This document shows, piece by piece, positions 53,355 through 63,775 of a stretch of DNA of 64,000 bases; within the stretch, counting starts at the first letter, position 1, and every line of letters starts with the position of its first letter. This DNA is from Candidatus Fonsibacter ubiquis (GTDB lineage: Bacteria > Pseudomonadota > Alphaproteobacteria > Pelagibacterales > Pelagibacteraceae): NCBI RefSeq assembly GCF_002688585.1, contig NZ_CP024034.1, forward strand, positions 549,501 through 613,500, read 5' to 3'. The translations under genes and the position numbers were made by a program. The notes under the pieces were generated by a model that did no database searches, was not told the DNA's origin, and worked only from the letters and a program-made list of their open reading frames with translations.

Positions 53355-53430
53355 TGGTGCCCTAATACGGACTTGAACCGCAAACCTACTGATTACAAAT
53401 CAGTTGCTCTACCAATTGAGCTATTAGGGC
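53355..53430 (-). tRNA. tRNA-Thr (anticodon UGU)
   Basis: On the minus strand the cloverleaf is complete: acceptor stem GCCCTAA/TTAGGGC with discriminator A and encoded CCA, D arm GCTCAATTGGTAGAGC, anticodon stem CTGAT/ATCAG with loop TTTGTAA giving anticodon TGT, and T arm GCGGTTCAAGTCCGT. Length is 76 with CCA. It lies between the small membrane protein gene (0-base gap at its 3' end) and a 118-base spacer at its 5' end. Confidence 0.96.
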
Positions 53431-53548: not shown

Positions 53549-54811
53549 CTATTCAAACCTCAGCATTTTTACATCCCTGACTTCTATTTTATCATGAAAG
53601 TCTGTGTAATTAACTTTTTCTTGTTCATTGAGTGCCGGCCTTCTAAAGAATATTTCAATCTCTCTCTTGTCTTTTAAGTAATCATGTAATGACTGAACAT
53701 TTTTAAACTCTTTTCCATCCACATACATAATAACATCAAACTTTCGAAGTTTTCCTGATGCAGGGCCACTTCTTAAATTTTGTACAACTAAATTTCCTTT
53801 TGGATTTGCCATCCTCTGATTGATTGCAAGTCTTGTTGAGGATGCTTTATCAGAGATTATTACATTAGAAAAAATCAGACCAACTCTGTCTGTGATACTG
53901 CCTTTTGATTTTAAGGTTAATTTAAGTTCTTGCTCTTTATTATCTCTGATAATTTTTAAATTAACATTAGTTTTTCCCCTTGTTTCATGGGAAAGCTGTG
54001 TTGGATTTTCAATCTTTATTCCATCAATCTGTATTATCTCATCACCCACTTTTAATTGATTATCGTTTGTTAAAACTTCAGACACTTTCAAGAATTTTCC
54101 TTGTTCTTTATTGTTTGCAAAGATCACATTAAAATTTAATGGGGATGGATCTTTTTTATTCTTAAATAAATCAATAACTTTGCAGACTGTATATGATGGT
54201 AATGCAAAATTAAGTCCTTCATTCTCTTGAATCCCAAATGAATTAATTCCAACAACAAGTCCTGATTTTACATCTATAAGTGCACCTCCAGAATTTCCTC
54301 TATTTATTGCAGCATCAGTTTGAATGGACTCAAAAAAATCACTTTCAAACCTTACGGCTGAAATAATTCCTCTTGTAATAGTAAAATCTTTTCCCGCTGG
54401 ATGGCCGAAGGCAACAACTTCCTGTCCTTGATTATAATTATTTTTACAATGTAGCTTTGCCTCAACTGCATTATTTGGAATAGATTTTGGATCAATCTTT
54501 AAAAATGCAAGATCCAATTCAGGATCGATATAAGCTTGTTTGGATTGGACGGGATTTGAATATTTAAAGTTAACTCGATTTAATGCAGGCGAATAAGATG
54601 CAACATGAGCATTTGTAATTATAATCCCATTTGCCTTATCAATTAAAAACCCCGAGCCAGCACTTGGGGTATAAGAGTCCTCAAGAAATGGTGTGTCAGT
54701 TGAATTATAAATTTTAACAGTATACTTATTCGCCTGATCTAGAATTCTTTCTAGTTCATTAGCATAAACACTTGATGTTAAAGCTAATATAATAAATATT
54801 ATTTTTTTCAT
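53549..54811 (-). CDS. DegP-like secreted serine protease with PDZ domains
   Basis: Trypsin-fold (S1C) periplasmic protease. The 420 residues have a signal peptide (about 1-18, ending SSVYANE), then the catalytic triad His69 (IITNAHVAS), Asp100 (PELDLAFLKI) and Ser174 (INRGNSGGALID). A PDZ domain at about 240-300 (LKVGDEIIQIDGIKI) and a second at about 345-390 (SGKLRKFDVIMYVDGKEF) follow. The protein ends in a short extra segment. By family it would handle misfolded envelope proteins. Its start overlaps the end of an unknown gene by 4 bases, so both are probably one operon. Confidence 0.9.
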   Translation of the reverse strand: MKKIIFIILALTSSVYANELERILDQANKYTVKIYNSTDTPFLEDSYTPSAGSGFLIDKANGIIITNAHVASYSPALNRVNFKYSNPVQSKQAYIDPELDLAFLKIDPKSIPNNAVEAKLHCKNNYNQGQEVVAFGHPAGKDFTITRGIISAVRFESDFFESIQTDAAINRGNSGGALIDVKSGLVVGINSFGIQENEGLNFALPSYTVCKVIDLFKNKKDPSPLNFNVIFANNKEQGKFLKVSEVLTNDNQLKVGDEIIQIDGIKIENPTQLSHETRGKTNVNLKIIRDNKEQELKLTLKSKGSITDRVGLIFSNVIISDKASSTRLAINQRMANPKGNLVVQNLRSGPASGKLRKFDVIMYVDGKEFKNVQSLHDYLKDKREIEIFFRRPALNEQEKVNYTDFHDKIEVRDVKMLRFE

Positions 54812-56651: not shown

Positions 56652-57371
56652 TTATTTAAGTTCTTTTACTATCTCTACAAAAAATCTTATTATTGCAAGT
56701 ACGACAGATACTCTTGCGGCATAACCCCAGAACCCATTTTCTTTTTTTTTATTTTTTTCAATAACATAAAATCCTGCACTTCGCCAAATTCCAATAGATA
56801 CAAAAATTGTAAAAATAATATAGGCAAGGGCATAAAGACCTAAAATAATAGCCGCAGAATCTGATTTAAGATTTTCAAATATAAACAATGGCAATGCTAA
56901 AATAATTGCCAATAAAACGCCGATGCCCCAATAACTATAAGCTAAAGACTCCTCACCTCGAATAAAAGGTTTAATTTTTGTTTCAATAAAACTATTTTCA
57001 TTCTGAGATGAACTTCTTAAATTACTTTCCTTCTTAGAGTAAGATTTCTCTAAATTTTTAACTCTTCTATTTTCTCTTAACTCATCTCGTTTAGCACGCA
57101 ACTCATAAATTCTATTTTCTTTATCGATTCTTTCTTGCTCAATTTTATTTTCTCTCTCAATTCGTTCAGCCTCTATCCTTTCTTGCTCCTCATAAAATTC
57201 ATCTTCTAAATCTCTTGTTCTGATTTCAATATAAATTGCTCGAGCTTCATTTTTATCACCTCTTGCCTCTTTAAAAGCTTTCAACCAAGCCGTATCTTCA
57301 TAATTATTTTTATCTAATTCCGATTTAACTATTTTTGATATTTTTTTTTCTAACTCTTTTTTTTGTGACAT
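56652..57371 (-). CDS. Coiled-coil protein with shared C-terminal membrane domain
   Basis: The 239 residues start with a helical segment (TAWLKAFKEARGDKNEARAI, a pattern also seen in zinc-ribbon-type proteins elsewhere), then a highly charged coiled coil at about 50-110 (EEQERIEAERIERENKIEQE). The C-terminal domain at about 136-239 has three hydrophobic segments. It contains GEESLAYSYW and SIGIWRSAGFY, which match the C-terminus of the MORN protein at 58129-59664. There is no signal peptide, so the coiled coil is probably cytoplasmic. It diverges from the PrsW-like gene. Function is unknown. Confidence 0.7.
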   Translation of the reverse strand: MSQKKELEKKISKIVKSELDKNNYEDTAWLKAFKEARGDKNEARAIYIEIRTRDLEDEFYEEQERIEAERIERENKIEQERIDKENRIYELRAKRDELRENRRVKNLEKSYSKKESNLRSSSQNENSFIETKIKPFIRGEESLAYSYWGIGVLLAIILALPLFIFENLKSDSAAIILGLYALAYIIFTIFVSIGIWRSAGFYVIEKNKKKENGFWGYAARVSVVLAIIRFFVEIVKELK

Positions 57372-57456
57372 AAAGTAAAAATATTATGATAAAATTTAAA
57401 TATATTTACGAGTATATATGCATTTAATACATTGAAAATAAATAATTTAAAAAAAA

Positions 57457-58116
57457 ATGATACTTTATCTTACAATTTTGCCCGCCATACTCATTTTTTT
57501 ATATTTTTATTTCGCCACTGAGTACAAAAATATTCATTCGCTTATTTTTCAAGTATTTGTAATTGGTTTATTCATAGCTTTTCCAGCTGGTGAGTTTAAC
57601 TCTTATATTTTAGAAAATTTTTCAAATAACAATCCAGTCAATAATGCATTATTAACTGGTTTTTTTGCTGGCGGATTAGTTGAAGAATTATTAAAATTTT
57701 CTGTTTTATATTTTTTTGTTCTTGAGCATAATAAAATAGTTAAGCCAACTTATATTTTAATTTTTGGAATGATTGTATCCTTAGGTTTCGCTATACACGA
57801 AAATTATACATATGTGTTTACAAATAAAGATAAGGGATACCAACTTTATGTATCCCTAGTCAGAATCTACTCTGCGGTACCAATGCATATTTTCAATGGT
57901 GTTATTATGGGGTGTTTCTTTGCATTTTATAAATATAGTAAAAATATAAAGTTTTTAGGCTACTCAATCTTAGTCCCTATAATTTTGCATGGTAGTTATA
58001 ATTTTTTATTAGGCGTAGACTTTCCGCACGTTGAAAAAATTATTGTAATAATTATGATTTTTTTATCCTATCAACTATATAAAATAGTTAGCAAGATCGA
58101 AACTTCCTACAGGTAA
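57457..58116 (+). CDS. PrsW-family intramembrane metalloprotease
   Basis: The 219-residue protein has about seven hydrophobic segments. The family motifs are in order: EExxK as GGLVEELLKF (Glu76, Glu77, Lys80), FxxxE as FAIHENYTY (Phe111, Glu115), a His motif as MHIFNG (His144), and a final His in LHGSYNF (His178). PrsW-type enzymes cut membrane proteins such as anti-sigma factors. No sigma or anti-sigma gene is here. It is flanked by two genes that share a membrane domain, divergent on one side (85 bases) and convergent on the other (12 bases). Confidence 0.82.
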   Translation: MILYLTILPAILIFLYFYFATEYKNIHSLIFQVFVIGLFIAFPAGEFNSYILENFSNNNPVNNALLTGFFAGGLVEELLKFSVLYFFVLEHNKIVKPTYILIFGMIVSLGFAIHENYTYVFTNKDKGYQLYVSLVRIYSAVPMHIFNGVIMGCFFAFYKYSKNIKFLGYSILVPIILHGSYNFLLGVDFPHVEKIIVIIMIFLSYQLYKIVSKIETSYR

Positions 58117-58128
58117 AATAAAAAAAAA

Positions 58129-59664
58129 TTAAATACCTTCTAACATTCCTTGGATAAATCCAATTCCAAAAAGAATAGATGTAGCAACTATTACTACATA
58201 AATTACGTTTGCCCAGCCAAAAGTTTCTCTAATTCTAATTTTTTGTAATTTATAATTAGTAGCGCTTCTCCAAGTTCCTATACTTGAAAAAACATAGCAA
58301 CCTACAACTATCCATGCAAAAATCCCTGGTATCAATGAATCAAGATTTTGTTTTGAACTATAATCATCTAAAATTGAAAATAAAAAAAAATTTATTAAAG
58401 TTAATAGTGAATACATTATCCAAAATGAAAAACCTAAAGATTCTTGACCATTAAAAAAGCTTATAATAAAATTTTTACCTTCTCTTACTCTAGGTTTAAA
58501 AGATCTTTCCGAGTTAAGATTTAAATCTTTTTTTGTTTGTGTATATACAAAGAAAATTACTCCTATTAGTAATATCAATACCCACCAATATTCTTTTATA
58601 CTACTACTTGTTTTTAATTTTGCGCTCTCTGTAGATTTTGTTTTTTTTGTGAAATTTGAATTTTCATTTTCTACTTTTCTATAATTCTTTGCATCAGCAT
58701 ACTCATTCTCATTCCATGTTCCTGTCAATCTTTCGCCGTCAGAAAAAAAATAAGTCCCTGTACCGTGTCGCTTTCCATTTTTTACCTCACCTATATACTT
58801 ATCTCCTGATGAAAAAGTTATAGTTCCTCTGCCGTTTGGACGATCATTCTTGTATTCTCCAGAATATTTATTTCCATTGGCATAAATATATGTTCCAAAT
58901 CCATGTCTATCTCCATTTAAATATTCTCCCTCATATCTATCGGCAGGATCAGACCACTTGTAAATTCCGTAGCAATTTGTCCAGGTCTTTTTATTATAAC
59001 TACCAACGCAATTTGGTAATTTTGACTGATTTACTGAAGATGCGGATGTTTTGCTTGTATTTGATATATTTGAAGTTTCGGTATTAAAGATTTTATCTCC
59101 GTAAATTTTTGCAGAGCGGCTTGAAAAATCTAAATTTTTGTAAAAAATAAATAGCTTTTCGGCATTCTTAATCTCAACTGTCGTGGCCTGTTTATAATTT
59201 ACAGGTCCTGGGGCGGGATAATTTCTAGGTTTTGTATATGATAGCCAAACACCATTAGTTTTTTCATAAATATATTGTTTGTCACCCTCAATCCTGTAAT
59301 GAAGTACAATTGAGTCTCTATCATGATATTCTATTAAGCCTTCTTGTAAGTAAAAAGTAATTTGATTATTAATATTATATGCGCAATCAAAAATACCGTT
59401 TTCTATTGCTATAAGTCTATTTGATTTATCATAATGAATTTTTTTTCCTTGCTTAAGACCATTTACATTAGCATTTAATTTCTTACAATTTTCAAAGTAT
59501 GAATTATTTATTCCAAAATAACCCTGCTCATTAGTGTATCCAGCATCACTTTTTTCACCAACACTTAGTCCTTTATTTGTTTTATTATCATAAATAAGTG
59601 CAAATGTTCTTTCTGGAAAAATAGTTAATGCTAAAAAAAATAAAAATAAAAATATTTTATTCAT
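58129..59664 (-). CDS. MORN-repeat protein with shared C-terminal membrane domain
   Basis: The 511 residues have a signal peptide (about 1-22), an unknown N-terminal domain with several Cys, three full MORN repeats at about 244-312 (YEGEYLNGDRHGFGTYIYA, YSGEYKNDRPNGRGTITF, YIGEVKNGKRHGTGTYFF) plus a partial fourth, a membrane segment at about 358-375, and a C-terminal membrane domain at about 400-511. That domain contains GQESLGFSFW and SIGTWRSATNY, matching the coiled-coil protein at 56652-57371. MORN repeats would therefore be periplasmic. The protein's role is unknown. It is convergent with the PrsW-like gene. Confidence 0.75.
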   Translation of the reverse strand: MNKIFLFLFFLALTIFPERTFALIYDNKTNKGLSVGEKSDAGYTNEQGYFGINNSYFENCKKLNANVNGLKQGKKIHYDKSNRLIAIENGIFDCAYNINNQITFYLQEGLIEYHDRDSIVLHYRIEGDKQYIYEKTNGVWLSYTKPRNYPAPGPVNYKQATTVEIKNAEKLFIFYKNLDFSSRSAKIYGDKIFNTETSNISNTSKTSASSVNQSKLPNCVGSYNKKTWTNCYGIYKWSDPADRYEGEYLNGDRHGFGTYIYANGNKYSGEYKNDRPNGRGTITFSSGDKYIGEVKNGKRHGTGTYFFSDGERLTGTWNENEYADAKNYRKVENENSNFTKKTKSTESAKLKTSSSIKEYWWVLILLIGVIFFVYTQTKKDLNLNSERSFKPRVREGKNFIISFFNGQESLGFSFWIMYSLLTLINFFLFSILDDYSSKQNLDSLIPGIFAWIVVGCYVFSSIGTWRSATNYKLQKIRIRETFGWANVIYVVIVATSILFGIGFIQGMLEGI

Positions 59665-59884: not shown

Positions 59885-60496
59885 ATGAAAAAAATTTTAA
59901 TTATAATATTTACATTATTTTTTTGGAACTCAGTAATACTTGCTAAAGAAGAGATTAGGTCTAGATTCGGTTTTTATATTACTGTCCCATCAAATTTTAT
60001 CGCTATTCAAAATCAGAATTTAGATGATTTACTCAGAAAATATAAAGGTTCTAAAATCGATAAAGATGCTTTTAATGATTTAATGGCCGGATCTTCTAAA
60101 CAAAATATGAATATAGAGTATTTTTTTTCACCAGAGATGGAAGATCCCGGCAGTCATACTATTAATATAGTAAATGACACATCGGGTGATTTTAAAAGAG
60201 ATATCCTTTCAATCCCTATGCGGGACCTTTGTCCTTTATACAAGAAAGAATATTCCAAAGTATTTAAAAAAAATCTCGAACAGTATACTTGTGAACTTAC
60301 AAATAAATTTAGTCCTAAATTTAAACAAGCGGTGTTTTTGATTCATGATAGTGTGAGTTCGAAAGAAGGATACCTAGTTCAATATCAACTTCAAACAAGT
60401 GCTGGTTTTACAACTTTCACAGCAACTTGCAAAAATTCTAGAACTTGCGAATTGATGAACAGCTACGTATCTCAAATGATTAGATCAATTAGATAG
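59885..60496 (+). CDS. Secreted protein of unknown function
   Basis: The 203 residues have a clear signal peptide (MKKILIIIFTLFFWNSVILAKE, cleavage after Ala20). The mature part contains four Cys (in DLCPLYKK, YTCELTNK, ATCKNSRTCELM) that may form two disulfides. A central VFLIHDSVSSKEGYLVQYQL strand pattern suggests a compact beta-rich fold. I recognise no family. It precedes the ion-channel gene on the same strand but is separated from it by 189 bases with its own promoter. Confidence 0.65.
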   Translation: MKKILIIIFTLFFWNSVILAKEEIRSRFGFYITVPSNFIAIQNQNLDDLLRKYKGSKIDKDAFNDLMAGSSKQNMNIEYFFSPEMEDPGSHTINIVNDTSGDFKRDILSIPMRDLCPLYKKEYSKVFKKNLEQYTCELTNKFSPKFKQAVFLIHDSVSSKEGYLVQYQLQTSAGFTTFTATCKNSRTCELMNSYVSQMIRSIR

Positions 60497-60685: not shown

Positions 60686-61819
60686 GTGAAAAAATTTATT
60701 TTTCTTTTTTTATTTATATTTTATCAATCCACTGCATTTTCAATTAATCAATTTAAATATTCAAAAGATAGTCTTAGAGCTGAGTTTTGTAATACATTAT
60801 ATGATAATTTGAATTTTCCCAATTTACCTAATAAAACCCCTTTGAAAATTGACACAGAGCTTTTAGTAGAAGAAATTAATAATGTTGATGGGAAATCTTT
60901 TAGCTTTGACGCTGTATATACTCTTTGGATCTATTGGACTGATGATAGAGTAATTGAATTATTAAAAAAATTAGGAAAATATGAAAAAACAAATGAACCT
61001 ACATATTTATGTGATTATGAAGTAAGTTCAATTTGGGGAGCAAAAAGAAAGTTATTTGATCCAGTTGTAGAAATTTATAATCAAAAAAAAACTCCAAAAT
61101 ATTCAGAAAGATTTGATTGGATTGAAATTTTCAGCAATGGAACAATTCAAGCAAGAGTAAGAACAAGCTCCGAGTTTAGAACAAAAGAATTAGATTTTTC
61201 AAAATTCCCTTTTGATAAACAAACATTTTCATTTCACATATTTTCAGAATTTCCAATTAATTTTGTAGAGTTTATTCCAAATAAAAAAATGAATACACAT
61301 AAAAAGGAACTTTACAAAGCAGACGGCGAAGATGGGTTAAATATTCCTGGCTGGAAAGTCAAAGATGTTCATTTTAAAAATATAATAACAAAAGAAGATA
61401 AATATGAATATTCAGGATTTGTTGTTGAAATTACTGCTGAAAGAAATTTTGGATATTATATTTTTAAGATTATGATTCCTGTAATTTTTTTGATCGTAAT
61501 AACTTGGTCTGTTTTTTGGATTAAAGTTTCTGAACTACAAGCAAAAGTGAATGTGACAGTTGTAACTTTATTAGCTTTAATAGCTTATAATTTTATTTTT
61601 GAACAGGATATTCCAAAACTTAGTTACGTTACATATTTAGATGTTTTTATTTTAGTTTCATATTTTTTTGCAGGCACAGCAACTATTCTTTGTATATATT
61701 CCCATTGGAAATATTTAATTTCAAAAAAAGATCAGAATATTGTTGGTTACTACGCAAGAAGATTTGGACCAATAAGCTATGTTCTAATTAATTTATTAGC
61801 AATATTTTTATATATATAA
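60686..61819 (+). CDS. Prokaryotic pentameric ligand-gated ion channel
   Basis: The 377 residues have the layout of a Cys-loop-type channel without the cysteines. They are a signal peptide (1-19), an extracellular beta-sandwich (about 50-250) with WIYWTDDRV, LFDPVVEIYN and the diagnostic FPFDKQTFSFHI (174-185), then RNFGYYIFKIMIPVIFLIV (M1, 253-275), M2 at about 284-305 (NVTVVTLLALIAYNF), the PKLSYVTYLD M2-M3 loop, M3 to about 340, a short basic loop and M4 to the end. The start is GTG at 60686; an in-frame stop lies 15 bases upstream. The ligand and ion cannot be read from the sequence. Confidence 0.88.
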   Translation: MKKFIFLFLFIFYQSTAFSINQFKYSKDSLRAEFCNTLYDNLNFPNLPNKTPLKIDTELLVEEINNVDGKSFSFDAVYTLWIYWTDDRVIELLKKLGKYEKTNEPTYLCDYEVSSIWGAKRKLFDPVVEIYNQKKTPKYSERFDWIEIFSNGTIQARVRTSSEFRTKELDFSKFPFDKQTFSFHIFSEFPINFVEFIPNKKMNTHKKELYKADGEDGLNIPGWKVKDVHFKNIITKEDKYEYSGFVVEITAERNFGYYIFKIMIPVIFLIVITWSVFWIKVSELQAKVNVTVVTLLALIAYNFIFEQDIPKLSYVTYLDVFILVSYFFAGTATILCIYSHWKYLISKKDQNIVGYYARRFGPISYVLINLLAIFLYI

Positions 61820-63364: not shown

Positions 63365-63775
63365 TTAGGCTGGAAGAATTACAGTATCGATAATATGAAT
63401 AACGCCATTCGTACATTCGATATCTGTTTTTGTAACTTTAGATGTTCCGTTTAATTTAACGCCATCATCTGTACTAATTTTTACATCAGCACCATTTACA
63501 GTTTTTGCAGATTTACCATTTAAACCCATTACATCTGCTGCCATCACTTTGCCAGCAACAACGTGATATGTAAGAATAGATTTAAGTTTTGGAACATCAG
63601 CAAGTAAAGATTCTAATGTGCCAGCAGGTAATTTTGCAAATGCATCATCTGTAGGTGCAAAAACTGTAAATGGACCTGTGCCTTTTAATGTATCCACTAA
63701 ACCTGCCGCAGTTACTGCAGCTGCTAGTGTTTTAAAAGATCCAGCTTCTACAGCTGTATCAATAATGTTGTGCAT
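63365..63775 (-). CDS. Fasciclin (FAS1) domain protein
   Basis: Single FAS1 domain of 136 residues covering nearly the whole protein. The H1 box is [20 protein letters not shown], followed by [14 protein letters not shown] (the YH motif) and the H2-like [14 protein letters not shown] end. Such domains mediate adhesion or binding in secreted proteins, yet no signal peptide or membrane anchor is visible from any start, beginning [12 protein letters not shown]. It has a good Shine-Dalgarno (AAGGAAAT before ATG). Its composition is richer in Ala, Gly and Val than nearby genes, which may mark recent acquisition. Confidence 0.9.

Follow-up and report, generated by a model that had tools for sequence, protein, structure and literature searches.

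PrsW of Bacillus subtilis is the site-1 protease for the anti-sigma factor RsiW. PrsW proteins have also been proposed to process linked proteins in polymorphic toxin export, and APH-1 has been named as a distant relative of PrsW (PMC3482391). Glutamic proteases of the CPBP family cut the motif, transmembrane helix and basic tail of one or more dedicated targets (PMC11980579). In the literature searched, we found no paper joining PrsW with SAR11 bacteria or with pentameric ligand-gated ion channels.

The window (the whole stretch of DNA analysed, 64,000 nucleotides, positions 549501-613500 of a single-contig 1.16 Mb genome) contains a PrsW gene flanked by two genes that share a C-terminal membrane domain, called DOM below, and a ligand-gated channel gene about 2.6 kb past PrsW. 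The features are as follows.

53549-54811, minus strand: PDZ-containing serine protease, HtrA-like; several PrsW loci have a relative of it nearby (a weaker link)
56652-57371, minus strand: 239-residue protein (the coiled-coil protein); N-terminal WLKAF...YIxxR module, charged helix, then C-terminal DOM (residues 130-238)
56655-56984, minus strand: DOM copy 1 (coordinates derived from residues 130-239); three predicted transmembrane helices, N-terminus and basic loop 2 predicted to be cytoplasmic
57457-58116, plus strand: PrsW-type (PF13367) intramembrane protease, 219 residues; PF13367 E 6.1e-25
58129-59664, minus strand: 511-residue MORN protein; signal-peptide-like N-terminus, three MORN repeats, WW transmembrane stalk, linker, DOM
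58132-58476, minus strand: DOM copy 2, MORN protein residues 397-511; BLASTP homology to copy 1
58531-58590, minus strand: type-B WW transmembrane stalk YWWVLILLIGVIFFVYTQTK, MORN protein residues 359-378 (coordinates derived from residue numbers); common to five other PrsW-abutting proteins
59885-60496, plus strand: 203-residue secreted protein; family present near six PrsW loci
60686-61819, plus strand: pentameric ligand-gated ion channel homologue; PF02931 E 2.3e-8 and PF02932 E 8.7e-9, both over cut-off

Both DOM open reading frames were present on the minus strand at these coordinates. PrsW, on the plus strand, points away from the coiled-coil gene and toward the MORN gene, and its stop codon is 13 bp from that of the latter. 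As the PrsW strand is opposite to that of both DOM genes, the three genes are not one operon. The whole genome has exactly two DOM copies (by protein search), one PrsW gene and one MORN gene, all of which lie within about 3 kb. Promoter and terminator scans gave results no better than chance. A tRNA-Thr (tgt) gene at 53355-53430, about 4 kb before PrsW, may mark an island boundary, and a stand-alone fasciclin-domain protein is encoded at 63365-63775 (PF02469, E 1.9e-39).

The preliminary description of this locus put forward, as one hypothesis, that PrsW recognises or processes DOM and that the three genes form a small envelope-signalling cassette. The finding is larger than first described because the cassette includes a ligand-gated channel and because the likely target feature differs. 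We tentatively read the window as one instance of a modular SAR11 envelope cassette around a PrsW-type glutamic protease, in which PrsW would cut the stalk and DOM would be an accessory, a reading that we favor but hold with some reserve.

That the gene between the two DOM genes encodes a PrsW-type intramembrane protease was confirmed. The protein matched PF13367 with a score of 88.3 bits (cut-off 23.5) and its catalytic residues are intact: E76, E77 and K80 of the EExxK motif, the second Glu (E115), and the two His residues (H144 and H178) were invariant in 52 of 52 PrsW relatives. The model of the window PrsW (pLDDT 95.5) had APH-1 as its best PDB match.

The shared C-terminal domain had been aligned by eye, and BLASTP of the whole coiled-coil protein against the MORN protein bore this out (E 2e-12, 28% identity over 134 positions), pairing the G-x-E-S-L-x-x-S-[YF]-W and S-I-G-x-W-R-S-A-x-x-Y motifs of both proteins. 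The Smith-Waterman score exceeded that of full shuffles by 17 SD and that of shuffles preserving the hydrophobic blocks (15-residue windows) by 11 SD. Judged by these scores, the homology of the two C-termini goes well beyond shared hydrophobicity. A 20-member DOM alignment has just two invariant positions, G and the W of SFW/SYW; the S and Y of WRSAxxY, the G preceding that motif and the W after the basic loop are nearly invariant. The domain is also undescribed, as had been supposed: it gave no Pfam match above cut-off and no PDB sequence or PDB fold match. The AlphaFold2 model made from the 20-member alignment (pLDDT 94.6) has a short helix plus three membrane helices, the second of which is long, with WRSAxxY near its far end. 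Positive-inside counts (K+R) were 0.30 for loop 1 and 4.95 for loop 2, and by these charge counts the DOM N-terminus and the basic loop after WRSA are predicted to be cytoplasmic. DUF805 (PF05656) is, like DOM, a small multi-transmembrane domain having a conserved G...FW start, and it also adjoins PrsW in eight loci, but a relationship was rejected upon hhalign profile comparison (probability 0.2%).

Within the order, taken to be Pelagibacterales (the SAR11 clade), DOM is found by itself (about 110 residues) or preceded by zinc-ribbon-like segments, by the WLKAF module, or by an outer part and a membrane stalk. Beyond the order its fusion partner is a ClpP-like domain, and in one case a GYF-like module is present as well (L174, L176, L177 and L182; folds recognised by eye). 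The N-terminus of the coiled-coil protein is a distinct module, WLKAFKEAxGDxxxARAxYIxxR, which in the window protein gave no Pfam match and which is also carried by other DOM proteins, those of G085 and G136. In G085, a genome of the same genus that is 55% complete and in which no PrsW was found, two WLKAF-DOM genes flank a MORN-only gene (L035:9091-11352). A narrow DOM profile search of genome contigs gave matches only in Pelagibacteraceae. A phage origin of the coiled-coil DOM protein was rejected, none having been found in viral contigs, and PHROG and PADLOC gave nothing useful for this protein or for PrsW.

Given 397 genomes of the order, of which 31 have DOM and 46 have PrsW, 3.6 genomes would be expected to have both and 16 do. 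Co-occurrence within the order is thus above expectation (Fisher p 7e-9), although this value is not corrected for relatedness and, like that for the channel below, overstates the evidence because many of the genomes are close relatives. DOM and PrsW lie within 3 kb in 15 of the 16 shared genomes (the exception is G251, where they are on different contigs), a proximity for which random placement gives a chance of about 0.6% per genome. G128 has DOM about 16 kb from PrsW. The association spans several PrsW clades, with nine label changes on the PrsW tree, and the clusters are found at about seven different chromosomal sites flanked by different core genes, rpoD, lpd, tuf and lpxB among them (named by eye from the sequences). 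A single insertion hot spot was rejected on the basis of these differing sites. Of the 31 DOM genomes of the order, 15 lack PrsW, as do all seven DOM genomes found outside the order in a phylum sample, and hence DOM is not specific to the protease. It is a general module often included in the PrsW cassettes of this order. The preliminary proposal is partly supported: the co-occurrence check that it named came out positive within the order, while its refuting condition, a domain common in genomes with no PrsW gene nearby, holds in part.

The PrsW genes of the order lie repeatedly beside a limited set of genes, those encoding ligand-gated channels, DOM proteins, DUF2167 and DUF805 proteins, and paired two-transmembrane coiled coils. 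Upon clustering of the genes within 4 kb of PrsW, ion-channel homologues came first (22 loci), followed by DOM (16) and a CII-like regulator (Phage_CP76, 15), with paired two-transmembrane (coiled-coil) proteins, DUF2167 and DUF805 as further recurrent neighbours. The partner combinations are reshuffled between genomes and the genes are sporadic in the order. Of the 52 PrsW genes, 23 have a channel gene of the pentameric ligand-gated family nearby, and in many cases the two overlap or abut in the same orientation. PF02931 matches over cut-off were present in 11 of the 397 genomes, all 11 of which have PrsW within about 5 kb (Fisher p 2e-11, not corrected for relatedness); four weaker matches were in genomes lacking PrsW. 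In G075 the channel protein that abuts PrsW (L041:11424-12980) has a long N-terminal extension that by eye resembles a PDZ domain, a resemblance without Pfam support. In many loci (L112:7910-8371 and similar) a 153-residue Phage_CP76 (CII-like) gene overlaps the PrsW start codon and may encode a cassette regulator.

In the MORN protein a single-transmembrane stalk, YWW...FFxYT, lies just before DOM; the coiled-coil protein lacks this stalk. About a quarter of PrsW genes abut a gene encoding a signal peptide, an outer part, a WW/FWF stalk and basic residues: 14 of 52 have such a stalk gene at -19 to +16 bp, 13 of these being on the same strand. Eight of the 14 encode DUF2167 proteins, which end in FWW/FWF, a transmembrane helix and a basic tail, and six encode type-B proteins, including the window MORN protein. 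The type-B proteins share YWWxxI......FFxYT, in which Y, W, W, I, F, F, Y and T are invariant in this sample of six. Over the part compared, BLAST between their outer parts stayed at background, except for the stretch just before the stalk in G347 and G386, but the stalk regions do align (about 1e-8 for the window protein versus G007). DOM follows the type-B stalk in four of the proteins, is absent in G007 and is a remnant in G229, and in the latter two genomes too the stalk adjoins PrsW. In G098, G347 and G386 PrsW and a stalk-DOM gene share a strand and overlap by about 20 bp. The motif, helix and basic tail are at the very C-terminus in the DUF2167 partners and in G007, whereas in the window MORN protein DOM follows. 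A type-B profile searched against 222 genomes, within which only two of the six type-B proteins lay, gave strong matches only at two genes, both PrsW-linked, all else having E above 0.002. DOM proteins having a KWW stalk and no PrsW nearby are found in G068, which lacks PrsW, and in G412, which is not among the PrsW genomes. DUF2167 was absent from 27 of 27 genomes lacking PrsW, an absence that is weak evidence because control genomes were also silent.

As the stalk tracks PrsW more exclusively than does DOM, including in G007 and G229, these patterns suggest that the stalk is the better candidate for recognition by PrsW. That DOM itself is the recognised or processed module of a three-gene signalling cassette, as first proposed, we consider unlikely. 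The excess of shared genomes, the 3 kb linkage across several PrsW clades and the same-strand overlaps of PrsW with stalk-DOM genes argue for it, but DOM is frequent in genomes that lack PrsW, most PrsW loci have no DOM, and the stalk remains with PrsW where DOM is gone.

A different arrangement, possible if somewhat improbable, has PrsW and the ligand-gated channel as the core, with PrsW maturing, turning over or responding to the channel and the DOM and stalk proteins being exchangeable accessories. The presence of PrsW beside every channel gene over cut-off and the frequent overlap or abutment of the two genes argue for it, but over half of the PrsW genes lack a nearby channel and the four weaker PF02931 matches come from genomes without PrsW. 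It could also be that these genes merely travel together in variable islands with no direct functional interaction, for which their sporadic presence, the reshuffled combinations and the DOM of G128 could be cited. This we think quite improbable, given distances under 3 kb in genomes of about 1.1 Mb, recurrent gene overlaps and gaps of a few bp, about seven chromosomal sites rather than one hot spot, and a type-B stalk conserved beyond hydrophobicity though the outer parts differ.

In the stalk-cutting reading that we favor, PrsW would recognise and cut the WW stalk of its neighbours, by analogy with the CPBP sorting proteases. Cleavage would release or re-anchor the outer part, which in the window is the MORN domain. 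DOM would be an accessory three-helix module that holds or tunes proteins at the same site rather than a substrate signature, and the linked ion channel is the obvious candidate for a sensor that triggers cleavage. Counting against stalk cutting, the window stalk gene is convergent with PrsW, unlike the usual same-strand pattern, aromatic residues are common at the membrane edge, and the KWW stalks of G068 and G412 have no PrsW nearby. Moreover, as a WW-stalk neighbour is present at only about a quarter of the PrsW genes, the stalk cannot be the sole substrate. The stronger proposal of a dedicated SAR11 protease-target system, in which PrsW clips its neighbours at the WW stalk as an undescribed sorting or shedding signal and is coupled to the channel as trigger, we regard as doubtful.

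The genomes of SAR11 bacteria, which are very abundant in the ocean, are streamlined, and one would not expect them to carry a recurrent cassette that links an intramembrane protease to ligand-gated channels and variable surface proteins. Should the stalk prove to be a cleavage signal, dedicated sorting by glutamic proteases would extend from CPBP to PrsW, and PrsW would gain substrates of a class distinct from anti-sigma factors. The channel link, should it hold, would provide a genetic handle on the role of prokaryotic pentameric channels.

Compared with B. subtilis PrsW, the window protein has the same PF13367 family membership and conserved glutamates and histidines, but it scored 92.2 bits against the PrsW equivalog model NF033739 (the B. 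subtilis function), below the cut-off of 225, and no anti-sigma factor was found among the scanned neighbours in the window and its relatives. In the likely SAR11 partners a signal peptide is combined with a C-terminal anchor, an orientation opposite to that of RsiW in the membrane. The PrsW proteins of polymorphic toxin export resemble the SAR11 cassette in the proposed processing of a linked protein, but are fused to toxin domains, whereas in SAR11 PrsW stands as its own gene and the scanned partners showed no toxin domain (PMC3482391). The MrtX/MYXO-CTERM and MrtJ/JDVT-CTERM myxosortases differ in being CPBP rather than PrsW proteins, and the invariant Cys that the MYXO-CTERM motif requires is absent from all six type-B stalks; the transmembrane segment of the window MORN protein also leads into another membrane domain, not to the chain end. 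Like the PrsW cassette, however, both myxosortase systems have a glutamic intramembrane protease, their targets resemble the candidate PrsW targets in having a short motif, a transmembrane helix and a basic tail, and in the MrtJ case one protease lies beside one target gene (PMC11980579).
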